Assembly: GCA_947038565.1 (NCBI GenBank) | Contig: CAMQWP010000001.1 | Coordinates: 192,381 to 256,380 of the forward strand | Reading direction: 5' to 3' | Length of the DNA: 64,000 nucleotides | Origin: an uncultured Clostridia bacterium | GTDB lineage: Bacteria > Bacillota > Clostridia > Christensenellales > UBA3700 | In this document: piece by piece, positions 1,287-21,354 of the stretch | Numbering within the stretch: the first letter of the stretch is position 1 | How the letters are laid out: each line of letters starts with the position of its first letter | Notes under the pieces: generated by a model | What the model was told of the DNA's origin: nothing | The model's input: only the letters and a program-made list of their open reading frames with translations | Database searches by the model: none | Translations under genes and position numbers: made by a program

Positions 1287-2702
1287 TTACTCAACTATTT
1301 CTATTTTTACGATATTAGTTGCGCCACTCTTTCCTATGTGAGTACTTGCTACTAATACGACTTTGTCTCCAGCAGCAATTAACCCTTTTTCTTTGCATAT
1401 TACTGTAGAATCATTATACAACTCTTCAAAAGAATCTATACTTTCTTTGAATATCGGTGTAACGCCCCAGCTAAGAGCAAGTTTGTAATATGACTTGCTA
1501 TTATGTGCAATTGCAAATACAGGACTTACTGGTCTAAATCGGCTTACCATACGTGGGCTTGCTCCTGTCTCAGTTACTACTATTATCGCGTCCGCGTCTA
1601 TGTCGTACGAAGCTTTAACAGCAATACTACTGATAGAATCAGCTATATTTAGTATTTTAAAGTCTTGATTGTTGAATCTCTTTTTATAATGTATGTTCTG
1701 CTCAGTATGCTCTAGGATATCAGACATTGTCTTTACTGCTCTAACAGGGTGTTTACCCGCAGCAGTTTCACCACTAAGCATAACAGCACTAGTACCGTCA
1801 TAGACAGCATTAGCGACATCACTCGTCTCTGCTCTAGTCGGTCTAGGGCTAGATATCATACTCTCTAGCATTTCAGTTGCGACTATTACTCGCTTGCCAG
1901 CGTCACGACTTTTCTTCACGATACATTTTTGCAACTGTGGCAGTCTTTCATAAGGTATCTCGACACCCAAGTCACCTCTTGCGATCATAATTCCTTGACA
2001 GCAAGCCATTATCTCTTCTATATTCTCTACGCCTTTAGCACTCTCTATCTTAGCGATGATATCTATATCGTTCGCTCCATTCTCTTTAATGAATGAGATC
2101 AGACTTATCAAGTCCTCACGAGTAGATACGAATGACGCGGCTATAAAGTCTACATCTTGCGCTATAGCAAAAAGTAAATCTTCTTTATCGCTTTCGCTGA
2201 GGTAAGGTAATTGCAAGTCAATTCCCGGAACATTAATTGACTTATTATTACTAAGAACTCCGCCAATAATAACTACTAGATGAATATTTTTACCGTCAAC
2301 GTCCATTACTTGCATCTTTATAAGTCCGTCACACAGTAGTATTGCGTCTCCAGCATTTACATATAAATACAAATCCTTATATGTGATACTTGCCTTAGTC
2401 TTGTCGCCGACGATATCCTCATAAGAGAACATAAACTTATCACCAGCCTCCACTTCAATATGTCCCTCTGCAAACTTAGCAAGCCTTATCTCAGGGCCTC
2501 TAGTGTCAGCAAGGATAGCGATAGGTATATCTAGCTCATCTCTGACCTCCCTCACTAGTCGGATGTTTTCTGTATGCGTTTCATGGTTCGCATGACTCAT
2601 ATTTATTCTAGCGACATTCATTCCTGACTTTGCCATTTCCGTGATTATTTCCTTACTATTGCATGCAGGTCCGATAGTAGCGATTATTTTAGTTTTTTTC
2701 AT
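1287..2702 (-). CDS. pyk: pyruvate kinase
   Basis: A 471-residue enzyme converting PEP and ADP to pyruvate and ATP, the last step of glycolysis, in the cytoplasm. The N terminus KTKIIATIGPA, the arginine segment MNVARINMSH, DTRGPEIR, the KIESAKGVENI lysine/glutamate motif, IMIARGDLGVEI and TSAVMLSGETAAGKHP are all family signatures. The length fits the short bacterial form without the extra C-terminal PEP-utiliser domain. I start at the ATG at 2700-2702 because TTGGAGG stands 6 bases upstream; an in-frame ATG 30 bases earlier has no ribosome site. One small oddity is ATEMLESM where ATQMLESM is usual. Upstream are TTGAAA (2779-2784) and TATAAT (2757-2762). Confidence 0.97.
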   Translation of the reverse strand: MKKTKIIATIGPACNSKEIITEMAKSGMNVARINMSHANHETHTENIRLVREVRDELDIPIAILADTRGPEIRLAKFAEGHIEVEAGDKFMFSYEDIVGDKTKASITYKDLYLYVNAGDAILLCDGLIKMQVMDVDGKNIHLVVIIGGVLSNNKSINVPGIDLQLPYLSESDKEDLLFAIAQDVDFIAASFVSTREDLISLISFIKENGANDIDIIAKIESAKGVENIEEIMACCQGIMIARGDLGVEIPYERLPQLQKCIVKKSRDAGKRVIVATEMLESMISSPRPTRAETSDVANAVYDGTSAVMLSGETAAGKHPVRAVKTMSDILEHTEQNIHYKKRFNNQDFKILNIADSISSIAVKASYDIDADAIIVVTETGASPRMVSRFRPVSPVFAIAHNSKSYYKLALSWGVTPIFKESIDSFEELYNDSTVICKEKGLIAAGDKVVLVASTHIGKSGATNIVKIEIVE

Positions 2703-2756
2703 CTTGCCTCCAATATAGCTATTGCTATACATTCTTATTTCTCTTTTAATTATTAC

Positions 2757-2784
2757 ATTATAACATAATATTGATTATTTTCAA
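2757..2784 (-). promoter_or_regulatory. promoter of pyk
   Basis: On the minus strand TTGAAA at 2779-2784 and TATAAT at 2757-2762, with a spacer of 16. Confidence 0.6.
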
Positions 2785-2861
2785 TCTGTTTTAAAGCAAT
2801 TTTTTTGCGATCGATCTTATAAGCGTGCATTTTTTTGTTCAATATTTATACTTACAATACA

Positions 2862-3122
2862 TTAATCGCATTCATTATACTCCTTGATTACATACCACTT
2901 ACTATTGTATCTATCAAAGTATATTTTTTTCGGTTTTCCTTTTATAAGACATTTATACTCTAGTGCTGCCGAAAATCCGCCACGAGGAGTAGTCATTTGT
3001 GCAGTATAAACTTTATCAATAATGAAAATATCGTCTTGAAAAAATATTTTTAGAGGCGTTATCTGTCCGTATTCGTTGTACTTGACAACTACCTCTACCG
3101 GCACCTGAATTATGCTACTCAT
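2862..3122 (-). CDS. conserved small protein downstream of lexA
   Basis: An 86-residue cytosolic protein starting MSSIIQVPVEVVVKYNEYGQ. The start is chosen because AAAGGAG precedes the ATG at 3120-3122. Predicted mostly beta, with the pattern VPVEVVVKY..G.ITPLKI...D...IDKVY near the start, a GGFSAALEYKCLIKGKPKKIYFD middle and WYVIKE near the end. From memory, clostridial genomes carry a similar small protein next to SOS genes such as lexA or the Y-family polymerase gene. It lies 67 bases downstream of lexA, is transcribed with it, and so is probably under SOS control. Its function is unknown. Confidence 0.75.
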   Translation of the reverse strand: MSSIIQVPVEVVVKYNEYGQITPLKIFFQDDIFIIDKVYTAQMTTPRGGFSAALEYKCLIKGKPKKIYFDRYNSKWYVIKEYNECD

Positions 3123-3189
3123 CCTTACTCCTTTACTTTTTTTATTATAATTACCTTGCATATCAACCAATTTAGTAGATACTATATGG

Positions 3190-3798
3190 TTAATAAAATT
3201 TAATGCATGATACTAGCTTGCCTTGAAGTTCTAGTGTGTAAGGAAAGATATCCGCGTATCGGTCATTCTCTGCGACCAAACGAACCACTCCGTCTTCATT
3301 ATAATATCTCTTTAGCGTATTCTCATGGCCGTCCACCAACGCAACTACAATATCTCCACTACTTGCCGTGTTGCAACGGCTAATCACTAAAGTGTCGCCA
3401 TCTTCGATACCCGCACCCGTCATACTGTCACCACATGCCTTTAGCATATAATATTCACCTTCACCGAAAAGTGACTTTGGAAGTAATACCTCATCACCAT
3501 AACTCTCTTCTTGCTCTTCGCCAGGCAACCCACAAGATATATTTCCAATGATCCTTGTCGGTGTGAAATTTTTGCTTAATATAGGTCTTATCATGTCAAT
3601 ATTTCTAGATTTAAGTGCATTACGCCTGATTTGTCCGCTATCTTCTAGTGCAGACACATAGCGTGACACAACATCACGAGAATTTGTATCCAATACGCTC
3701 AACATCTCCGATGTAGTAGGTGACATATTATTTTCTATTTGATAATTGCTTATGTAAGCATATAATTTATCTAATTTATCTTGATCCTTACTTCTCAT
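3190..3798 (-). CDS. lexA: LexA, SOS repressor and autoprotease
   Basis: A 202-residue LexA. The N-terminal winged helix-turn-helix (about residues 1-65, with MSPTTSEMLSVLDTNSRDVVSRYVSALEDSGQIRR) binds SOS operators. The C-terminal S24 peptidase domain has the catalytic serine S125 (ACGDSMTGAGI) and lysine K163 (NTLKRYY). The self-cleavage bond would be C89-G90 in ISCGLPG, where many LexA proteins have Ala-Gly. RecA filaments on damaged DNA would trigger cleavage and induce repair genes. AAAGGAG precedes the ATG. A near-consensus operator overlaps the start of its own transcript, so autoregulation is likely. Confidence 0.95.
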   Translation of the reverse strand: MRSKDQDKLDKLYAYISNYQIENNMSPTTSEMLSVLDTNSRDVVSRYVSALEDSGQIRRNALKSRNIDMIRPILSKNFTPTRIIGNISCGLPGEEQEESYGDEVLLPKSLFGEGEYYMLKACGDSMTGAGIEDGDTLVISRCNTASSGDIVVALVDGHENTLKRYYNEDGVVRLVAENDRYADIFPYTLELQGKLVSCIKFY

Positions 3799-3908
3799 AC
3801 AAAACTCCTTTTTCTATCATGTCTTATACACTATTATATTTATTTATGTATAATATATACTTAAACTACTTTTGATGTTTTTTACTTAATTTCTTTGTTC
3901 ATGTTACG

Positions 3909-3922
3909 CGAACACTTGTACT
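3909..3922 (-). promoter_or_regulatory. LexA operator (SOS box) at lexA
   Basis: CGAACACTTGTACT fits the Firmicutes pattern GAAC-N4-GTTC with one change (GTAC). It sits 6 bases downstream of the lexA -10 box, a usual place for a repressor site. Confidence 0.6.
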
Positions 3923-3928
3923 ATTTAC

Positions 3929-3957
3929 ATAATACCACTATACTTATGTATTGTCAA
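3929..3957 (-). promoter_or_regulatory. promoter of lexA
   Basis: On the minus strand TTGACA at 3952-3957, a 17-base spacer, and TATTAT at 3929-3934. Confidence 0.8.
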
Positions 3958-4022
3958 TGCTTTTCACATCTTTGCATTGTCAAATATTGCCACACTTACT
4001 TATTTACTTACCTAATTATAAA

Positions 4023-4057
4023 ATATCGCAACACTAATAATAATAGCGTTGCGATAT
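4023..4057 (-). terminator. terminator of the sulfatase gene
   Basis: ATATCGCAAC (4023-4032) pairs with GTTGCGATAT (4048-4057). A TTTTATAATT tract follows on the minus strand. Confidence 0.7.
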
Positions 4058-4074
4058 AATACATTATTTCTCAT

Positions 4075-5436
4075 TTATTTGCAAAATAGTCTTTTCTTTA
4101 TTTTCGGAGTTTTACCCTCGACAGCCTTTATCTTAGATAGGAGCTGATCGCGTAAATCGCTACGAACTTGAGCGTATTCAGGATCTTTGATAAGGTTATT
4201 TACTTGATGCAAGTCTTTATCATTATCATATAAGATATCTTCTACATACACATTTGAGCTAGCACTTTCTATACCGAAACTGCCACGTTTTTTCACGCTA
4301 TAAGTATATTTATCCGTCTTTATTGCTCTACCTAATTGAGATTCGCTTATTTGCATAAACGCAGTATTATTTTTTATTTTTCCGTCAATCATGTCTAATA
4401 TACTTTCACCCTGATACTCGCTCGGCACTTTTCCTCCAGCCATTTTCAATATGGTAGTCGGCATGTCAATAAGGCTGACAGTACCGTCAAATACATGCCC
4501 GTTTAACACTTCTTTAGCACAATCAGTATTGATATACTCCGCAAGACCTCCACCTATCATAACCATTGGGATATGTATACTCGCGTCATGGCAAGATCTT
4601 TTATACTCAAAGTTGCGTGTCTTAAAATGGCAACCGTGATCAGAAGTATAGATAATGATAGTATTATCCCACTGCCCACTTTCTTTAACCGCTGATACCA
4701 AGTCGGCAAAATTACTATCAAGCCTATTGCAACTAGCAATGTACTTAGCAAACTCTCTATTATAATCACCTTTATTATGACTTGTCAAATCCTGCGGAAG
4801 TGGGTAATCCTTAAACTTCTCATCAAGCCCCTTCACGCACTCAAAAGTATTAGTCGTATTTTGCTGATGCGGTTCTAGTTGCGATATAAATAAAAAGTAT
4901 GGCTTCTCACTGCCTTTTTTACTCTTTATATAATCAGTAGCATAACCATTTAGCGTGTCGCTTCTGACTCCCTCAAACTCCACTTTTTCATTTGATTTAT
5001 CGAACACGAAACCACCATAACAAGCCGAAGTGAACTCCAAGCAATCTGCAGCCATCCAGTAATCTTTATAGCCCGCTCTTAAGTCTTCAGGAACTGGCAA
5101 TACTCGAAGGTTATTCCTTTTCTTAAGTCCCATCGTATCTGACGCTAAATGCCACTTTCCAACATATGCCGTATCGTATCCTAGACTATCAAGCTCGTTC
5201 GCCAAAAAATGCGCATACGTTTTGTCGATAGAAATACTGTTTATAAAACAGCCATTTTCACTCGCATATTTACCTGTTTGCAAGCAAGCCCTAGCAGGTC
5301 CACATACAGGCTGACATGTATACGCATTTTCAAAGCGAATACCGCTTTTTGAAAGGCTATCAATATTAGGCGTTATCTCTTCACAAATCGTATCCGCACG
5401 TTGCTGGTCGCTAAAATAAAATATAATATTCTTCAT
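4075..5436 (-). CDS. cysteine-type sulfatase (arylsulfatase family)
   Basis: A 453-residue alkaline-phosphatase-fold hydrolase that removes sulfate esters. The core CxPxR signature is C45-G-P-A-R49 in QPVCGPARACLQTGKY; the cysteine must be oxidised to formylglycine, in anaerobes by the radical-SAM maturase anSME, which is not in this window. Metal-site motifs FSDQQR (residues 8-13), GKWHL and IIYTSDHG are present. There is no signal peptide, so it probably acts in the cytoplasm on imported sulfated sugars or small sulfate esters. It stands alone with its own terminator, near a GPH sugar symporter, and a role in host or algal glycan use is inferred. GGGGAG precedes the ATG. Confidence 0.92.
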   Translation of the reverse strand: MKNIIFYFSDQQRADTICEEITPNIDSLSKSGIRFENAYTCQPVCGPARACLQTGKYASENGCFINSISIDKTYAHFLANELDSLGYDTAYVGKWHLASDTMGLKKRNNLRVLPVPEDLRAGYKDYWMAADCLEFTSACYGGFVFDKSNEKVEFEGVRSDTLNGYATDYIKSKKGSEKPYFLFISQLEPHQQNTTNTFECVKGLDEKFKDYPLPQDLTSHNKGDYNREFAKYIASCNRLDSNFADLVSAVKESGQWDNTIIIYTSDHGCHFKTRNFEYKRSCHDASIHIPMVMIGGGLAEYINTDCAKEVLNGHVFDGTVSLIDMPTTILKMAGGKVPSEYQGESILDMIDGKIKNNTAFMQISESQLGRAIKTDKYTYSVKKRGSFGIESASSNVYVEDILYDNDKDLHQVNNLIKDPEYAQVRSDLRDQLLSKIKAVEGKTPKIKKRLFCK

Positions 5437-9857: not shown

Positions 9858-10472
9858 CTATATCAATTCTTCTATTTTATCTATCTCTTCTACTGTAGGC
9901 ACATCGTTAAAAGCAGACATATCATCACTGATTGCTTGCTCATCAAACATGGCAAGTATGTCTTGTTGCCCTACTGACGAGCCATATATACTATCATTTT
10001 CTACATACGCCGACTCAGCCATGTCGAAGGTATCAAGCACGCTCTCCAAACTCTCTTCACTATTCATCTTAGTAGCATTTACACTATTTAGAAATTTAGA
10101 TAACTGAGCAGGTTGTTTTAACATTTCATTAAGCGAGATGTTTGCATTGTTAGATAAAAACTCTCTATCGTCCATTGCAGATTTCAGCTGATACATAGCA
10201 CTCATATTAGTCGCGATAAATTGCAGCCTCTTACCATACATTGCATTATTCTTCTTTAGGTTTTCTATGTTCTTAGCATAGAATACACGCATGTTTGTGT
10301 CTTTCTCGGCTTTACCCTTTGCAAATAATCCCGTAATAGTTACGTTGTTTTCTTCAATACTTGAGACAATGCTTTCTTGCTGTTTCTCTAGCTGAATTAT
10401 AGAGTCAACTACCTCAGTTCTTGATATCTTATCGAATTTAGTTTTTTTCTTAAATATGTCAAAAAAGCCCAT
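9858..10472 (-). CDS. second ESCRT-III (Snf7)-like protein, last gene of the operon
   Basis: A 204-residue, almost entirely helical, soluble protein. It begins MGFFDIFKKKTKFD, a short hydrophobic-then-basic start like the membrane-anchoring end of Snf7 proteins. Residues about 18-60 and 63-110 form two long charged helices (SIIQLEKQQESIVSSIEENN and AKNIENLKKNNAMYGKRLQFIATNMSAMYQLKSAM), laid out like the alpha1-alpha2 hairpin of ESCRT-III. The C-terminal third is acidic with further short helices and ends VPTVEEIDKIEELI, a possible ATPase-contact tail. It has no obvious MIM1 arginine/lysine end, unlike the first-gene paralogue. Nine bases separate it from the preceding gene. Assignment to the Snf7 fold is from pattern and context, not from a search. 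Confidence 0.6.
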   Translation of the reverse strand: MGFFDIFKKKTKFDKISRTEVVDSIIQLEKQQESIVSSIEENNVTITGLFAKGKAEKDTNMRVFYAKNIENLKKNNAMYGKRLQFIATNMSAMYQLKSAMDDREFLSNNANISLNEMLKQPAQLSKFLNSVNATKMNSEESLESVLDTFDMAESAYVENDSIYGSSVGQQDILAMFDEQAISDDMSAFNDVPTVEEIDKIEELI

Positions 10473-10481
10473 ATTTCCTCC

Positions 10482-10820
10482 TTAGATAACTATAGTTTTT
10501 CTCTCTGCGATTAACACTCTAAGCTCATTTATTTCATCTATCACTCTAGCATCTTTTTTCGGATTGCTTACGATTATTTTTATATCATCTAGTTTAGATA
10601 AAATTTTATGCTCTACTTTTTCTGCTGATGACAACTCGCTAGGACTAAGAAATTTCATATCCTCGCGTAAACTGTCTAGCATAAGTTTATAATCCTTATT
10701 TTCAGTCATCTCCATGAGTACTGATATACGGTTACATGCCATTAATTGCATGTCCTCAACTGTGTCTTTTACTAATTTTTTCTCGCGCTTATTTGCACGT
10801 CTTCTAGCTAAAAATCCCAT
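10482..10820 (-). CDS. short helical protein of the ESCRT-like operon (unknown)
   Basis: A 112-residue soluble helical protein, fourth in the operon. The start is the ATG at 10818-10820, preceded by GAGGAGG. It begins MGFLARRRANKREKKLVKDT, the same MGF-plus-basic opening as the two ESCRT-III-like proteins. Two or three helices with heptad-like spacing follow (EDMQLMACNRISVLMEM, KVEHKILSKLDDIKIIV, VIDEINELRVLIAERK). I do not recognise a family. It is about half the length of an ESCRT-III core, so it may be a reduced relative or an adaptor. Confidence 0.65.
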   Translation of the reverse strand: MGFLARRRANKREKKLVKDTVEDMQLMACNRISVLMEMTENKDYKLMLDSLREDMKFLSPSELSSAEKVEHKILSKLDDIKIIVSNPKKDARVIDEINELRVLIAERKTIVI

Positions 10821-10837
10821 GATTACATCCTCCTCAA

Positions 10838-11794
10838 TTATATTTCTTTGCCACACGTTTGACAAAACTTGCTGCCCGGAGCAACTACTGTACTGCAACT
10901 GCTACAGACTCTTGACATGCCTTGAGCCTCACCACAATTTCCGCAAAATTTACTACCCACTGGCATAGATATGCCACAATTTCCACAGAATACAGTATTG
11001 CTTTGTGCGACAGGTCTTGTAGCTTCAGCTACTTTTGTCACCACTCGTTCGTTACTGTCACGCTCTTCTTTGTCTATCTCTAGCTCTTCTTTGCGTAATT
11101 GTGCATGGCTGGTATCTTTTTGCTGAAGCATGTATCTTTCTTCCATTAACTTTATCCTAGTCGCTTTTATATCTTCAGGAAAGACAATATTATCGATAGT
11201 AAATGCTTTTAATACAACACCATACTCATCAAAACTATCAGTAAGCTCTACTTCTAACTGTTCAGAAAGGTTTTTCACATCTGATGCAAGATCAAAATAA
11301 CTAGTACCCTCATCGACCAATTTTCTAGCAAAAATATCCTTTACGTTAAGAGAAATAATGCTTTTCAGAAAGCTAACCAATGACTTAACATCAGCGATCT
11401 TGCCAGTGCCAAGTAATCTTTTGTACACTTTCATAGTGTTATTTATCTCGAAAACAACGGTACCGCTAGCACCTAAGTAAGCAGGCATCTTCGTATCAAC
11501 ATCGATAAATTCTATATGCGAAGGAGTGCCCCACAGCGACTGTAATCTGACTTCATTATTGATAAAAGTGATATCTATATCTATTTTTTTCTCGCCCTTT
11601 GGCTTAGCAATTTCATGCTTGCCCGACTGCATTATTTTCATGTCTGTACCATTGACAACAACTACCGCCTCAGTATTAACTGGAACCATTAAATATGCGT
11701 CTACCTTCACATCTCTATGTGCAGATCTAACTACTAGGTTATCGCCCATACCACTATCAAGTCTAATTATTAGATCATTATTAAAAATACCCAT
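10838..11794 (-). CDS. SPFH/band-7 protein with two C-terminal zinc ribbons
   Basis: A 318-residue protein. Residues about 15-215 form an SPFH (prohibitin/flotillin-type) domain, without a transmembrane helix. A charged helical linker (ATRIKLMEERYMLQQKDTSHAQLRKEELEIDKEE) leads to two treble-clef zinc ribbons, C270-C287 and C297-C314, with the repeated pattern CGNCG / GSKFCxxCG. The layout is that of Bacillus subtilis YdjI, encoded in an operon with PspA, itself a distant ESCRT-III relative. Here it lies 12 bases after the Vps4-like gene. It probably forms ring assemblies that recruit the ESCRT-like proteins to membrane; this role is inferred. Confidence 0.85.
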   Translation of the reverse strand: MGIFNNDLIIRLDSGMGDNLVVRSAHRDVKVDAYLMVPVNTEAVVVVNGTDMKIMQSGKHEIAKPKGEKKIDIDITFINNEVRLQSLWGTPSHIEFIDVDTKMPAYLGASGTVVFEINNTMKVYKRLLGTGKIADVKSLVSFLKSIISLNVKDIFARKLVDEGTSYFDLASDVKNLSEQLEVELTDSFDEYGVVLKAFTIDNIVFPEDIKATRIKLMEERYMLQQKDTSHAQLRKEELEIDKEERDSNERVVTKVAEATRPVAQSNTVFCGNCGISMPVGSKFCGNCGEAQGMSRVCSSCSTVVAPGSKFCQTCGKEI

Positions 11795-11806: not shown

Positions 11807-12961
11807 CTACTTTTTACCTTTCATGTCTTGTTCAAACTTTTGCAGAGCCTTGATATCAGTCTGTAATACTGACGAACTTGATGACTCCATCACTTCATTA
11901 AAATGCTGTCTTGTGATAGGTAGCATTTCTTTGCTTTGCATTTTGATTAAATCTTTTAATATACACATTTTGATTCTATCGCACAGCTCATTACAATCCG
12001 CACCATTATACCCTTCAGTAGCAACGGCCATTTCTGCAATAGTTACACCATTCAGTTGCATATCCTTTAGCTTTCTATTTATAAGATATTCTCTTGCTTC
12101 AAGATCTGGCAATGGCACATATAATAGCTCATTGAATCGACCTGGTCTTAATAATGCCGAGTCAATATCCCAAGGTCTATTAGTGGCTGCCAGTATCAAA
12201 AGTGTATTTTCACTGTCACCAAAACCTTGTATTTGAGCAAGTAACTCAGGCACAATTCTATTCATAACAGTAGAATTTCCGCCACGCTTTACGCCTATAG
12301 CCTCGAACTCGTCGAAAAATATTACTGCGCGTTCATGACTTCTTGCTTCAGCGAATAGATTTTTAAGATTTTTCTCCGCCTCACCAAACCACTTACTAAC
12401 TATATCACTACACTTAACTTGATAAAAATTCCCCCCGACCTCGCTAGCTATAGCCTTTGCGATCATGGTTTTACCTGTACCAGGTAGACCATACATTAGT
12501 ATTCCGCCACCTGCTTTTAGGTCGACCATTTTATAATACTCGGGGTACTGCAACGGTAGTAATATCCTGTTTTTGACAGCATCCTTTACTTCGTTTAGTC
12601 CCGCTACGTCTTCAAAAGTAATGCCCGTGTCTCCTGTCGCAGTAAACGAATTACCATCATCTTCGCCATTTTCTTTTCCATCTTCCCCTAGACTGTTGCC
12701 ACAATTACTATTCGATTTCTTAACAGTATTACTAGTAGGACGCACGGAAGTGTCTATACTCTCAGCAATCTCGATAATGTTTTTCGCTCTCTCCATTTGA
12801 CTACGTTTTACAGAGCCGTCATTTTCTTTCGCTGATGAGATAAGCATTTCTGCAGCTTTCATTAAAAACTTTTTGCAAGCAAGCATGTCTCCAGCATTTT
12901 TATAAACGATAGCTTTATCATAATATAATTTAAACATTTCATAATGTTGACTACCAGCCAT
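11807..12961 (-). CDS. Vps4-type AAA ATPase with N-terminal MIT-like domain
   Basis: A 384-residue ATPase. Residues 1-72 are three amphipathic helices laid out like a MIT domain (YEMFKLYYDKAIVYKNAGD, ACKKFLMKAAEMLISSAKE, SQMERAKNIIEIAESI). A low-complexity linker (73-112) leads to one AAA module: Walker A GLPGTGKT (158-165), Walker B VIFFDE (213-218), sensor-1 N261, arginine fingers R272/R275. The pore-loop stretch CSDIVSKWFGEAEKNLKNLF (184-203) is the hallmark of the Vps4/katanin/spastin clade. The C-terminal stretch PITRQHFNEVM...SVLQTDIKALQKFEQDM matches the closing helices of Vps4. There seems no room for the eukaryotic beta domain. Its ribosome site AAGGAG lies in the last codons of the upstream gene, so the two are coupled. 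Confidence 0.88.
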   Translation of the reverse strand: MAGSQHYEMFKLYYDKAIVYKNAGDMLACKKFLMKAAEMLISSAKENDGSVKRSQMERAKNIIEIAESIDTSVRPTSNTVKKSNSNCGNSLGEDGKENGEDDGNSFTATGDTGITFEDVAGLNEVKDAVKNRILLPLQYPEYYKMVDLKAGGGILMYGLPGTGKTMIAKAIASEVGGNFYQVKCSDIVSKWFGEAEKNLKNLFAEARSHERAVIFFDEFEAIGVKRGGNSTVMNRIVPELLAQIQGFGDSENTLLILAATNRPWDIDSALLRPGRFNELLYVPLPDLEAREYLINRKLKDMQLNGVTIAEMAVATEGYNGADCNELCDRIKMCILKDLIKMQSKEMLPITRQHFNEVMESSSSSVLQTDIKALQKFEQDMKGKK

Positions 12962-12964
12962 ATA

Positions 12965-13549
12965 TTACTCCTTAATGCTTTGCTTTAAGTCCGCAAGTGA
13001 CTTCTCAATATCCATATCAAACTGTGCATCCTCTTCGTCTTCCTGAGCCGCTAAATACTTCTCCACCTCTTTATCATCAATAGATGCACCTTGATTTGCA
13101 ACACTGCTATAACTATCGTTAGTAGTGTCCATTAATATCTCAAGCTGTGCAGACGCCATCTCTACGCCAGTAATAGCACTTTCAAATTCTTTTTGCACTT
13201 TGACAAAATTCATATCTTTAGTAGTTTTACTCATCTCTACACTAAGCATACTCATGCCGTCAAGAAATAATGATGTTACTTTTGTTAGATCTTTCATCTG
13301 TGACGCTAGCTCAAAATTAAGCTGCATTTCTTTAGCCTTTTTTTGTTGCATCATCGCCATCTTCAGCCCTGATAAAGCAAGATTATACTGTGCGTCCAAT
13401 CCTTCTTGCTTTGCCCTCTTTGCGGCTTCAAGATATTTGCCTTTTTGATCTTCTAACTCACGTATATGCTTGTTAAATTGGTTAATAGTTTTCTTAATAA
13501 TCATACGTTGTTCCATTTCTTTCTCTTGCTTAGACTTAAAAAACCCCAT
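12965..13549 (-). CDS. ESCRT-III (Snf7/CHMP)-like protein with MIM1-type tail, first gene of the operon
   Basis: A 194-residue soluble helical protein. It begins MGFFKSKQEKEMEQ; residues 17-50 and 52-98 form a long basic helical hairpin (NQFNKHIRELEDQKGKYLEAAKRAKQEG, then NLALSGLKMAMMQQKKAKEM), followed by LFLDGMSMLSVEMSKTTKDMNFVKVQKEFESA, which has the order and spacing of CHMP alpha3/alpha4. The rest is acidic. The last residues, D178-M-D-I181-E-K-S184-L185-A-D-L188-K189, fit the MIM1 pattern (D/E)xxLxxRLxxLK with Ser for Arg. Three bases separate it from the Vps4-like gene. Net basic first half and acidic second half are typical of ESCRT-III. It should polymerise on membrane and be remodelled by the ATPase; that is inferred. 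Confidence 0.78.
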   Translation of the reverse strand: MGFFKSKQEKEMEQRMIIKKTINQFNKHIRELEDQKGKYLEAAKRAKQEGLDAQYNLALSGLKMAMMQQKKAKEMQLNFELASQMKDLTKVTSLFLDGMSMLSVEMSKTTKDMNFVKVQKEFESAITGVEMASAQLEILMDTTNDSYSSVANQGASIDDKEVEKYLAAQEDEEDAQFDMDIEKSLADLKQSIKE

Positions 13550-16791: not shown

Positions 16792-18990
16792 CTATTTTAA
16801 CCAACTTATACCATTTATGCCTTTATCCCAGAAATACCCAAAAATATAGCTGTCTTTTTCGTTAGGCATTCTTAGATATAGCTTATCACAGTTATAAAAT
16901 GCTCTCTCACCTATCTCATTAAGACTCTCGCCGATATAGAATGATGTAAGACTTGTACAATTATAAAACGCCGTTTGATTTATTTTAATTAGTCCTTTGA
17001 TTTTTGGTGCTGTTACTAGACTCGTACAATTACGATATGCATCAACTGGTATTTCTGTAATCGTGTCAAAGCCCACGCCTCTTACGATTATCAGGCTCGA
17101 ACTGTTTGTAAATAGCGGATGAGCTGACATTTCAGCATCGATACAAATTTCCTTTATAATATAATTGTTGGTAAAATAATCCAGATCTACAAATTTAACT
17201 TTAAGATTCCCTATTTCTTCAGCTATCTCTACCATTAGCACGTCACCTTCAACGTGTGAAAATTCATAATACTCTTTGCTTTCGTTCAGCGTGTATGCAA
17301 CATTATTATACATAACTTCCTGCTCGACATTTACATCCGTCGACGCATTAACATCAACATTCATTGTTACTACGCTTACTACTGCTATTACAATAATAAA
17401 CAGACTAATTAATATGAATGGTAGAATAGGACTTTTTTTCTTCGCTGCCTTTTCTTCCTTTTTATGCTTACGATACTTCTCTTCATGATATTTTTTATTA
17501 GCACTTGTTTTCTTAAAAGTATTATCCTTGTTGTTGTCATAATAGCTTGGAGTACTACCATTAAAAGTAGTCTTTACATTATTAGCTATGTTTTTTCCTG
17601 TTATGACTACGTTATTAAGAACATCAGTGATTTTGCGTTCTAAAGACGGATTACCATAGTTTTGTTGTGCATTATTGTGGTTGTTTGTACTTGACTGCCT
17701 CGCCACAAGATTCTCTTTTGCTCTCATAACCAGCCCTGTCCATATTATTTTTTGCTCATGGTCACTAGAGTAAGTTATTGCATTAATATAGTTTATATCC
17801 GAAGTATAGTCAGCCAATACTCCCGCAATATCTTTTTCGTCCGAAATACGATTGTTTGCAAGCATTTTAAGCCACCACATCTCGCCACAGTTTGGTGCTA
17901 ATTTTTGCACCTCTTCTAATACTTCTATTGCCTTTATAAAGTTAAGCGAATATAACATACCACGTGTCTCTTGCAACATCTGATCGACCTTAATATTCTC
18001 TCTCGCACCATTCGAATAATTTGTATTGTAGGATTTCCCCTCCATACTTTTTTCATACTTTGCCCTATCTATCTCTCTAAATGACCTAATACATAGATCA
18101 GCAAGCTGTCTCTTAGTATTACCTACACCGTCCACCCACATTTTTCCATCGAAAAAGTCGTTAAACAATGATGTATGTACACTATTATCTATCTTGTACT
18201 CTACTCTTGCTTTGCCTAATGATTTTGCTATATTGATCTCGCTTTTGATGTCTTTTGACATCATTGCGTCTTCACTAGATATTACCAGAAAGATAGAACA
18301 ACTATTTATAGCTTTAGTTATATTATCCCAATAGTTAATTGTATCGTTTGGTCGCAAGTTCCTAGTGGATATCCAACACTTATGACTATCTTCCTCTAGC
18401 TCTGTCACTACCTGCTCTGCCACATCTATATCGGTACTTCTATGACACACGAATATGTCTCTAGGAATATCATCATAATTATCTTCCATAGCACGTCTTG
18501 TTGCGTATTGTGCTTTGTATAATTTCAACTCATCACAATTATCTACGCCATCAAGAGCCATTATGAAAGACTCTATATCTATCCTATCTCTTAGGTCACT
18601 GTACTCGTATACGTGACTTAATACACGCCTTGTGTCACTTGGTGTCAAGTTCACACTTTCACTACCGTAATAATCTTTAATATACGCGTTATGTCCTAAT
18701 ACATTTTCGGCGTATGCATAGTAATATTGAGACAGCCCATCACCAGCGACTATCTCTAATATATCATAAGACGACTTGGAGATGCTTCCTATGTCATTAG
18801 CACCCACAGCGTCACTTTGTATATTTCTAAGGTTTTTTAGTTTGCAAGAAATTGCCTCGTCAATACTGCCTAGTTTTTTGCTAGACTCTACAAAATATTC
18901 ACTTCCGCAAGCGGGACACTCGGCAACACTTACGCCCTCATCAGCACTTACATTCGCCCCGCACATAGGGCATTTCATTAATTCTAACAT
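16792..18990 (-). CDS. TIR - transmembrane - LRR protein with N-terminal zinc ribbon
   Basis: A 732-residue protein, read from the ATG at 18988-18990 (AAAGGA before it) rather than an earlier in-frame start. Order: zinc ribbon (CPMCG..., CPACG, residues 7-29); a helical region; a TIR domain at about 176-305 (DIFVCHRSTDIDVAEQVV, CWISTRNLRPNDT, CSIFLVISSEDAMMSKDIKSEINIA); a helical, TPR-like stretch with EVQKLAPNCGEMWWLKML; an Asn-rich linker; a lysine-rich stretch before one membrane helix (about 520-543, ILPFILISLFIIVIAVVSVVTM); and a C-terminal BspA-type leucine-rich domain (CTSLVTAP, INQTAFYNCTSLTSFYI, IGERAFYNCDKL). The lysines before the helix put TIR inside and LRR outside. E251 in KSEINIA sits where the TIR NAD-glycohydrolase glutamate is expected. 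Confidence 0.85.
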   Translation of the reverse strand: MLELMKCPMCGANVSADEGVSVAECPACGSEYFVESSKKLGSIDEAISCKLKNLRNIQSDAVGANDIGSISKSSYDILEIVAGDGLSQYYYAYAENVLGHNAYIKDYYGSESVNLTPSDTRRVLSHVYEYSDLRDRIDIESFIMALDGVDNCDELKLYKAQYATRRAMEDNYDDIPRDIFVCHRSTDIDVAEQVVTELEEDSHKCWISTRNLRPNDTINYWDNITKAINSCSIFLVISSEDAMMSKDIKSEINIAKSLGKARVEYKIDNSVHTSLFNDFFDGKMWVDGVGNTKRQLADLCIRSFREIDRAKYEKSMEGKSYNTNYSNGARENIKVDQMLQETRGMLYSLNFIKAIEVLEEVQKLAPNCGEMWWLKMLANNRISDEKDIAGVLADYTSDINYINAITYSSDHEQKIIWTGLVMRAKENLVARQSSTNNHNNAQQNYGNPSLERKITDVLNNVVITGKNIANNVKTTFNGSTPSYYDNNKDNTFKKTSANKKYHEEKYRKHKKEEKAAKKKSPILPFILISLFIIVIAVVSVVTMNVDVNASTDVNVEQEVMYNNVAYTLNESKEYYEFSHVEGDVLMVEIAEEIGNLKVKFVDLDYFTNNYIIKEICIDAEMSAHPLFTNSSSLIIVRGVGFDTITEIPVDAYRNCTSLVTAPKIKGLIKINQTAFYNCTSLTSFYIGESLNEIGERAFYNCDKLYLRMPNEKDSYIFGYFWDKGINGISWLK

Positions 18991-19270
18991 CTTTATTCCT
19001 TTACGTACAAAACATTGTTGCGTTATTATAAAAAATTCGTTTACGGCCGATTTAAACGCGTACCGTGTCACTTCATAATATTATAATATTAAAACAATTA
19101 TACTATATTTATGCCAAATTGTCAATGTTAATTTACTCATAGCACGTTACACCTAGCATAGCACTCATATATTGAACTGCTTAGTTTATCAATTCAGTCG
19201 TCAAATACATATATCTGCAAATAATAACTTACATAAATGATTGGCAACAACCTTTATCGCATATAACAAA

Positions 19271-19392: not shown

Positions 19393-21354
19393 TTACCAAG
19401 AGCTACCACCACCACCGCCGAAACCGCCGCCGCCTGAGCTTCCTCCGCCGCTAAATCCGCCGCCACCACCGCCACTGCTTGACGATGAGCTAGGAGGCTT
19501 AGCTGAGCTTGCCGATCTCATAATGCTGTTTGCACTATTGATTGCTGAAGAGAATACCACATAATTAAACATTGCTCCGCGACCACTAGGGCTATTATCC
19601 CAAGAAGGTGCAGTAAGAGGTATATCCTTGAACTTATCTTGCCATACCTCACTTACACCCATTACTTGTGCATAAGGCAGTACTTTATAATAAAACTCTG
19701 GATATTCTTCTATCATTGTCTCTAGTTTGTCTTTTTCAGCTAACAAAATGAAGTTTCTGAACCCTTGTATTTCACCAAGTATTGCACAATACTCTGGATC
19801 ACGCTTTAGTATAAATGGCGTAAGAATAAGTGGGAATACCGATGCAATTGATACAAGAATAGACGTCATTATGTCTAGCTTGCCAAGATACGTAAACACG
19901 GCAGCAATTATCGCCATCAACGCGACGCTTGCTACTCCATATATGATAATGTGTGTCTGATGTTTCTTTTTATCATGCTTTATATCATGCCTAGAGATGA
20001 TACCACCCAAGCTAGAAAACGCGAATAATAAAGCACTTAATACAATTCCCATTATAATGTTAGGAACATTAAGGACCCAACTAGACAAGTAGTCAAGACC
20101 TACCATCAATGCAGGAAGTGCACACGCCACAACAGTCAAACCTGTTGACATTGTTTTAGAAATCTTTGTGTATGAATATTTTTTCATGTCTTCTTTCAGC
20201 TTACTACTAGCAAGGGATACTACTGAACCAAACTCGTGATCCAAGTCAGCTATTCTTACCACATTACCACTTTCAAATAAGCCGTCGAATAATTCTTGAT
20301 CATAAATATCATCGTTACCATCTTTGCCTTTTGGCGGGTAATATTCTCTAACTTTTATGAGTTTTGTATTAGAAGGATCGATTTCATCAATATCTATTTT
20401 TATCAAACCTTCATTAGCCCAATAGAAAATCATGCATGTGATATCTTCTTGATCTATATCACCATCGATGATATATCCAACCTCGCAAGGATAAAGTCCT
20501 CGCGGAGCTTTAAAAGCTACTGGTGCAATTAATTCATCCTCTCGACCACGAATAGCAAATACTATAGTTAGTATGATTATCACTATTCCCATAATGCCTA
20601 GTATTACAAGATTCCACTCGATACGTAGAGTAAATACTCCATCTTCGAATTGCATTCTAGAAGTGACACCGCTAAATGCTTGCAATGCGATACCCGTATC
20701 ACCACTAGGCTCCATCACGAAAAATTCAACACCCTTAATAGTCTCCGTTTCCTGTCGAACTACTACGTTTGCATTATTGTCTTTCACGCCAATATTACCT
20801 GACACGGTATCATATGTAGGAGTAGCACCCTCAGGGAAGGCTAACAACACCTTAAAATCCTCTATGTATGTATCAAAGCCAAACGGCACAAGGTTTAGAT
20901 ACAATTCGTCATTAAAAGTCGTCCACCCTGGTAAAACCATTGTATAACTTACGCTATACTCATGATTGCCCGTCAAGTATTTTCCTTTTGATCCAATTTT
21001 TAACCTTAAAAAGTCACCCTCTGATATCACCGACATTTTTTGACCGCTTGATATACGCACGTCATCATACTTCTCTCCGCTATTACGAGGCAAATCAAGT
21101 ATAATACCTTGCTTTCTTGTATTGAAAACAGCAGTTAAATCAATATTAACTTTGACTTTTTTGTCGCTTGTTACCTCATATTTGTAGTCGATATTTTCAT
21201 AATAATATGTATCATCCACGTCTCCAGGTCTTGGCACAGACGAACTGCCCACGAAGTTTGTAATGAAAACTATTAAGAAAAACAATACCATGACACCCGC
21301 GATTATAAGCGGCACATACTTGACTATATTATCTCTTATTTTATCTTTACTCAC
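19393..21354 (-). CDS. DUF2207 membrane protein with Gly/Ser-rich tail
   Basis: A 653-residue membrane protein. One helix at residues 12-35, then an outer beta-sandwich DUF2207 domain (about 45-240; YYYENIDYKYEVTSDKKVKVNIDLTAVF...GIILDLPR..., NDELYLNLVPFGFDTYIEDFKVLLAFPEGA), a second helix near 248-268, a cytosolic winged-helix-like part (CEVGYIIDGDIDQEDITCMIFYWANEGLIKI), and more helices at about 405-510. It ends in SSSSSSGGGGGGFSGGG..GGGGGSSW, as usual for the family. It follows lemA by 9 bases; LemA-DUF2207 pairs are common in Firmicutes and linked to envelope functions, but their biochemical role is unknown. Confidence 0.93.
   Translation of the reverse strand: MSKDKIRDNIVKYVPLIIAGVMVLFFLIVFITNFVGSSSVPRPGDVDDTYYYENIDYKYEVTSDKKVKVNIDLTAVFNTRKQGIILDLPRNSGEKYDDVRISSGQKMSVISEGDFLRLKIGSKGKYLTGNHEYSVSYTMVLPGWTTFNDELYLNLVPFGFDTYIEDFKVLLAFPEGATPTYDTVSGNIGVKDNNANVVVRQETETIKGVEFFVMEPSGDTGIALQAFSGVTSRMQFEDGVFTLRIEWNLVILGIMGIVIIILTIVFAIRGREDELIAPVAFKAPRGLYPCEVGYIIDGDIDQEDITCMIFYWANEGLIKIDIDEIDPSNTKLIKVREYYPPKGKDGNDDIYDQELFDGLFESGNVVRIADLDHEFGSVVSLASSKLKEDMKKYSYTKISKTMSTGLTVVACALPALMVGLDYLSSWVLNVPNIIMGIVLSALLFAFSSLGGIISRHDIKHDKKKHQTHIIIYGVASVALMAIIAAVFTYLGKLDIMTSILVSIASVFPLILTPFILKRDPEYCAILGEIQGFRNFILLAEKDKLETMIEEYPEFYYKVLPYAQVMGVSEVWQDKFKDIPLTAPSWDNSPSGRGAMFNYVVFSSAINSANSIMRSASSAKPPSSSSSSGGGGGGFSGGGSSGGGGFGGGGGSSW

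Follow-up and report, generated by a model that had tools for sequence, protein, structure and literature searches.

Reviews of the pairing of ESCRT-III with Vps4, in the sections drawn on here, confine it to archaea and eukaryotes and report it absent from bacteria, and the relevant part of PMC7615534 describes bacteria as having no clear Vps4 homologue. Excerpts of PMC11237479 report VPS4-like AAA ATPases transferred to bacteria, AAA ATPases that accompany Snf7 or PspA, and, next to PspA, an ATPase with two AAA modules; because such cases are reported there, the idea of a bacterial Snf7/AAA pair is already partly in print. In the bacterial VPS4-like cases of that source an unrelated TPR-6TM gene displaces snf7, whereas in the operon described below the ESCRT-III-like gene adjoins the ATPase gene and has not been displaced. 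For archaea, a portion of PMC10936438 describes a “main clade” with kinase and phosphatase genes, and for Bacillus subtilis, a portion of PMC8581546 links PspA to the SPFH protein YdjI. Together with part of PMC13051332, these sources supplied the literature background. Searches of an open-access library, which covers few subscription papers and bioRxiv preprints, listed no report of the present operon.

The operon lies in a 64,000-nucleotide stretch of clostridial DNA (here called the window) and consists of five codirectional genes separated by gaps of 3, 12, 11, and 9 bases, encoding, in this sequence, SnfA, an ATPase, an SPFH/double-zinc-ribbon protein, a small protein of cluster c5, and SnfB (Table 1). 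The original prediction dealt with the ATPase; the ESCRT-III-like gene next to it, absent from that prediction, is the main point of the present analysis. We propose, with a probability of roughly three in four, that this is the operon of a bacterial ESCRT-III/ATPase machine, and we judge it to be a variant found in Christensenellaceae-like Clostridia and Planctomycetota that is linked to TIR proteins. The same genes come back in other loci, there in the order SPFH, c5, SnfB, SnfA, and ATPase. The small c5 protein had zero Pfam matches. SnfB is unrelated to SnfA at the profile level, and its candidacy as a second ESCRT-III protein was set aside given that it has no SnfA profile match, no Snf7 match, and no ESCRT match in the PDB. 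The operon as a replacement for cell division was likewise set aside, since the 2.09-Mb genome containing the window encodes FtsZ.

Table 1. Features of the SnfA/ATPase operon and its TIR companion, in window coordinates
Feature	Position	Strand	Basis
SnfA, ESCRT-III/Snf7-like protein, 194 aa, first gene of the operon	12965..13549	-	Pfam, profile against PDB, AF2 and Foldseek
MIM1-spaced C-terminal helix of SnfA (IEKSLADLK)	12983..13009	-	Family tails against shuffles
Vps4-like AAA ATPase, 384 aa	11807..12961	-	Pfam, AF2 model, structure comparison, tree
MIT-like three-helix N-domain of the ATPase, residues 1-72	12746..12961	-	AF2 helices, family-level MIT matches
AAA module of the ATPase with lid and C-terminal helix, without beta domain	11810..12625	-	Pfam, structure, spacing
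SPFH/Band-7 protein with double zinc ribbon	10838..11794	-	Pfam Band_7_1 2.1e-14, DZR 4.9e-9
Small conserved protein, cluster c5	10482..10826	-	Homologues in 17 loci
SnfB (name of convenience), second coiled-coil protein	9858..10472	-	Present in 21/24 clostridial loci including the window
Companion protein with zinc ribbon, TIR, transmembrane helix, and LRR_5	16792..19071	-	TIR_2 2.6e-12, LRR_5 1.9e-12

The Snf7 likeness of SnfA emerges at the level of the family. The window's SnfA matches Pfam Snf7 at an E value of 0.22, short of the cut-off, and nothing else in the genome matches this model at E ≤ 10; among the 35 family members, 14 match at E ≤ 1 (best, 2.3e-6). A SnfA family profile run against the PDB returned seven sequences at E ≤ 10, led by CHMP2A (0.0093) and also including CHMP3 (0.047), the rest being two S100-A5 entries and designed proteins; PspA/Vipp1 chains were not among the seven. 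The AlphaFold2 model of SnfA (pLDDT 74.3) had archaeal CdvB proteins as its top three Foldseek matches (E 0.023 to 0.05), with no match reaching E 0.001. Superposition with VIA gave an rmsd of 2.3 over 102 residues for the Snf7 core and 2.1 over 109 for CHMP2A. BAR and bMERB bundles equaled ESCRT-III in Z, mostly at larger rmsd, and on this predicted model ESCRT-III cannot be told by Z-score from other bundles of long helices. At several loci there are two or three SnfA paralogues, and in four (L057, L058, L059, and L060) the SnfA domain is the N-terminal part of proteins of 511 to 637 aa, accompanied by SnfA paralogues in the same locus.

The extreme C terminus of SnfA is conserved in pattern. 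Scored against the MIM1 consensus, 34 of the 35 tails carry MIM1 spacing at this position, as in eukaryotic ESCRT-III, compared with a mean of 1.1 and a maximum of 5 in 2000 shuffles. These features bear on a different reading of the operon, namely, a Psp-like envelope-stress scaffold in which SnfA and the SPFH protein would coat damaged membrane while the ATPase served as a general chaperone rather than as a polymer disassembler. The SPFH partner is in keeping with this idea, given that in B. subtilis, too, a member of the ESCRT-III superfamily (PspA) has a genetic link to an SPFH protein (YdjI) (PMC8581546, in the part drawn on here). So is the lack of any PspA_IM30 match above the cut-off at the SnfA locus or elsewhere in the window's genome, although the same lack distinguishes this genome from PspA/Vipp1 systems. 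SnfA, however, is nearer to Snf7 than to PspA/Vipp1 in the profile comparisons above, and its MIM-like tail, together with the MIT-like N-domain of a dedicated AAA ATPase, points to a specific coupling between the two proteins, which makes the scaffold reading unlikely.

The pairing of SnfA with the ATPase is conserved across genomes. A search of named genomes that used SnfA alone yielded 34 loci, or 35 with the window (the profiles for counting SnfA and SnfB were themselves derived from these loci by iteration). At 33 of the 35, an AAA gene with an MIT-like N-domain lies within 6 kb of SnfA on the same strand; the exceptions are L041, whose contig ends 295 bases past SnfA, and L044. An AAA gene with the N-domain is also present in every one of eight extra loci taken from order-level matches, and in four loci from a Planctomycetota sample an AAA gene always adjoins SnfA, with the N-domain detected in two. 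In all 12 extra loci, then, the ATPase is adjacent, and the N-domain was detected in 10 of them.

The ATPase gene itself is real, as originally predicted: across residues 1 to 383 its product shares 78% identity with a relative from its genus, and the ORF yields an AlphaFold2 model with a mean pLDDT of 79.9 (23-row alignment). The model places three helices at residues 2-23, 26-45, and 49-68 (pLDDT mostly about 90), followed by a disordered linker (75-104), the AAA module, and a C-terminal helix (367-383). The AAA module (Pfam AAA, 2.3e-38) carries Walker A at position 158, the pore loop SKWFGE at 189, Walker B at 214, ATN at 259, and LLRPGRF at 270. The latter bears out the remark that the finger segment is Cdc48-like.

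The proposal that the N-terminal residues form an MIT-like domain holds at the family level, where the three modeled helices are joined by MIT matches in both Pfam and the PDB. Among 30 N-domains, five match Pfam MIT (best, 1.5e-6) and eight match TPR_8 (best, 0.0023); the window ATPase sequence alone has no Pfam MIT match, and the putative MIT identity of its N-domain derives from the family rather than from the window protein. The MIT domain resembles TPR. An N-domain profile searched against the PDB ranked mostly designed TPR proteins, matched at one helical pair, above the MIT chains, which reached 0.0013 (2w2u) and 0.002 (VPS4B; columns 13-83), the VPS4B MIT domain being matched over its full length.

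Because this profile was trained on 17 sequences, its matches to them or to near copies of them carry no independent weight. No CbbX-like, RuvB-like, Thermococcus, or Chlorohelix row belonged to the training set. Among these rows, CbbX-like double-AAA ATPases beside SnfA match at E 7e-22 to 1e-26, RuvB-like and related ATPases at 8e-7 to 5e-4, Chlorohelix at 1e-5, and Thermococcus at 1.2e-4. Four ATPases encoded upstream of SnfA, likewise absent from the training set, gave 1.7e-8 (L039), 1.9e-5 (L036), 0.016 (L038), and 0.3 (L037), the last two at or past the noise level; Acidianus CdvC (0.039) came ahead of the first unrelated ORF (0.19), and yeast Vps4 stood at 1.1. Three types of motor adjoining SnfA, namely, Vps4-like, CbbX-like double AAA, and RuvB-like, therefore share the N-domain, and because it is also found on the latter two, it is the N-domain rather than the motor that tracks SnfA. 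Fusions of the N-domain to CbbX-like double-AAA or RuvB-like motors were seen in L020, L021, L023, L024, L027, L031, L035, and L045; a swap of the motor beside SnfA is a possible explanation of them.

The original prediction had also pointed to the lack of the Vps4 beta domain, and this proved correct: the lid helix and the C-terminal helix are 44 residues apart in the window ATPase and 80 apart in yeast Vps4 (for comparison, katanin has 54 and spastin 49). Its interpretation as the mark of an early-branching form did not hold up and was dropped, given that Acidianus CdvC, with the same spacing of 44, also has no beta domain; because archaeal CdvC has equal lid spacing, the absence is ordinary for archaeal Vps4. 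The suggestion of an archaeal-like form fared no better, since the host is bacterial and the nearest named relatives from the SnfA search are Clostridia and Christensenellaceae MAGs, a likeness on which alone the host's placement was based. The pair resembles eukaryotic ESCRT-III/Vps4 in the profile matches to CHMP2A, CHMP3, and VPS4B. It differs in the missing beta domain, in that ESCRT-0/I/II parts were not recognized, and in a very low sequence identity. Two side observations concern the architecture of the relatives: the ATPases of L004-L007, L013-L015, L030, and L033 have an additional C-terminal region of roughly 100 residues that is absent from the window ATPase, and in L017 a single ORF (2364-4553, plus strand) encodes two tandem Vps4-like ATPases.

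Pfam Vps4_C (PF09336) scores 17.1 bits on the window ATPase, under its cut-off of 21.3, and 23.9 and 24.3 bits, over the cut-off, on those of L006 and L043. The NCBIfam CdvC model covers residues 98-380 of the window ATPase (2.2e-57) and residues 14-370, including the N-domain, of the L043 ATPase (1.1e-67); in both proteins CDC48 scores slightly above CdvC. The pup_AAA model scores lower than either. The structural comparison, in agreement with the tree described below, gave Metallosphaera Vps4 a Z of 28.8 (rmsd 1.9 over 266), tied with p97 D2 (Z 28.6). These results raise the question of whether the ATPase could instead unfold soluble substrates in the manner of Cdc48, SnfA serving as its coiled-coil adaptor. 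The LLRPGRF segment, the top rank of CDC48 among the NCBIfam models matching the AAA part (5.2e-64), and the tie with p97 D2 would fit such an enzyme. The ATPase, however, has a single AAA domain and no Cdc48 N-domain (Pfam and AlphaFold2 model), and the SnfA family shows homology to Snf7.

The phylogeny of the ATPases adds to these objections. In a tree of 42 rows rooted on FtsH (a sparse sampling without Asgard or ARC sequences, from which L055 D1, the long-branched L017 D2, and L015b were left out), 13 clostridial and six Planctomycetota downstream ATPases form one clade (support 100/99). This bacterial clade is sister to, and not within, a group of Vps4, CdvC, katanin, spastin, Thermococcus, and upstream-type sequences (95/89), and the two are united against Cdc48, FtsH, and Nostoc (99/90). 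The AU test rejects a tree in which the bacterial clade is joined to Cdc48 D2 (p-AU 0.0101). The three FtsH rows form a clade of their own (100/100), and the window ATPase falls on the Vps4 side. The AAA module is thus Vps4-related, as had been predicted; the outcome that would have spoken against that prediction, a position within FtsH unrelated to Vps4, was not found. With the D2 grouping rejected, we consider a Cdc48-like unfoldase very improbable. The upstream ATPases of L036-L039 group with Thermococcus Vps4 (100/99); these are three Planctomycetota loci (one from a Kuenenia MAG), which have a second, downstream ATPase, and one locus from another bacterium.

On a Thermococcus peptonophilus plasmid, a SnfA homologue (E 4e-24) lies beside a Vps4-type ATPase (Vps4_C 7.7e-9, over the cut-off), a kinase, and a PP2C gene, a locus that resembles the archaeal main clade as described in part of PMC10936438. 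A Chlorohelix (Chloroflexota) plasmid holds a similar ATPase and a kinase, with no SnfA detected in the 6.4 kb covered. Archaeal CdvB/CdvC and euryarchaeal loci have in common with the window an ESCRT-III-like gene beside a single-AAA ATPase with an MIT-like N-domain and no beta domain. They differ in that the window has a bacterial host, an ATPase of a separate sister clade, the LLRPGRF segment, and SPFH, small c5, SnfB, and TIR proteins as partners, while no winged-helix or CdvA gene was recognized there.

The distribution of SnfA is patchy. Sampling at the level of the order found it in 31 of 297 genomes, and sampling at the level of the phylum in one of 398 (the window's own); in the phylum of L036 (Planctomycetota), 53 of 294 sampled genomes have it. 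Most genomes in the order-level sample lack it, as does one genome of the same genus. Since 50,697 phage records held no SnfA match, a phage origin was set aside.

TIR genes cluster with SnfA. In 22 SnfA-bearing genomes, TIR_2 occurs at 34 places, 12 of them no more than 10 kb from SnfA, where 0.43 would be expected, and of 12 large neighboring proteins scanned, the window's excluded, nine contain TIR_2 (8/10, plus L014 with and L018 without it), one of them combining TIR, NB-ARC, and APAF1_C in a single protein next to the ESCRT-like locus (L057, 8390-11500, plus strand). BrxL-like and trypsin-like genes occur in five loci each; the BrxL-like gene, of about 479 aa, is located shortly past the ATPase in L013, L014, L015, L030, and L033 (TIGR02688, 2.4e-133 for the L014 copy). 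The window's companion protein has, from its N terminus, a zinc ribbon, a TIR domain, a hydrophobic helix (residues 549-567), and LRR_5 repeats, and because this single predicted transmembrane helix lies between them, the membrane would separate TIR from LRR. Toll-like receptors have the same domains across the membrane in the opposite order. Upstream of the TIR gene lies a gene for a DUF2207 membrane protein (19393-21354, minus strand).

It is tempting to speculate from this neighborhood that the system serves anti-phage defense or self-sacrifice, with the ESCRT-like part sensing or reshaping membrane damage and the TIR, BrxL-like, and trypsin-like proteins acting as effectors. The TIR enrichment, the recurrent BrxL-like and trypsin-like genes, and the patchy distribution all argue for such a role. 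Several observations temper it: TIR places close to SnfA fall in just 10 of the 22 genomes, the phage records are devoid of SnfA, and PADLOC matched the ATPase to the AAA part of IetA, with zero matches for SnfA, the SPFH protein, and SnfB. IetS, of the IetAS system, is a subtilisin-like protease; no protease was found among nine window proteins scanned. We regard the defense role as a serious contender that falls somewhat short of even odds. It concerns what the system is for and is compatible with the reading of the operon as an ESCRT-III/ATPase machine.

If the operon does encode such a machine, SnfA would polymerize on the cytoplasmic face of the membrane, probably anchored by the SPFH protein and aided by SnfB. 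The ATPase would then be recruited through binding of its MIT-like domain to the MIM-like C-terminal helix of SnfA and may draw SnfA tails through the pore of the AAA ring, dismantling the polymer at the expense of ATP. This dismantling would remodel or repair the membrane and recycle the SnfA subunits. Besides the pairing, the shared N-domain, the tail motif, the Snf7 and CdvB likeness, and the tree, this reading is favored by the SPFH linkage, with its parallel in YdjI and PspA, and by the SnfA homologue and Vps4-type ATPase of the Thermococcus plasmid. The analysis demonstrates the relationships of SnfA and the ATPase by sequence or fold, together with the MIT-like domain, the tail motif, and the pairing of the genes, and from these the polymerization, MIT-MIM binding, disassembly, membrane action, and any immune role are inferred. 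A broader form of this proposal, in which a full bacterial ESCRT-III/ATPase branch keeps the MIT-MIM coupling fixed while exchanging the AAA motor and, in clostridia, forms the membrane arm of a TIR-linked response to infection or damage, appears rather doubtful to us.

The view that this machinery is restricted to archaea and eukaryotes would need revision if bacteria have such a pair, equipped with a MIM-like tail and an MIT-like domain. The pair would also provide outgroup data on the origin of Vps4 from Cdc48-like ancestors and offer a compact system for testing what a minimal ESCRT machine needs. Finally, one adaptor domain on differing motors would show that the motors are exchangeable.
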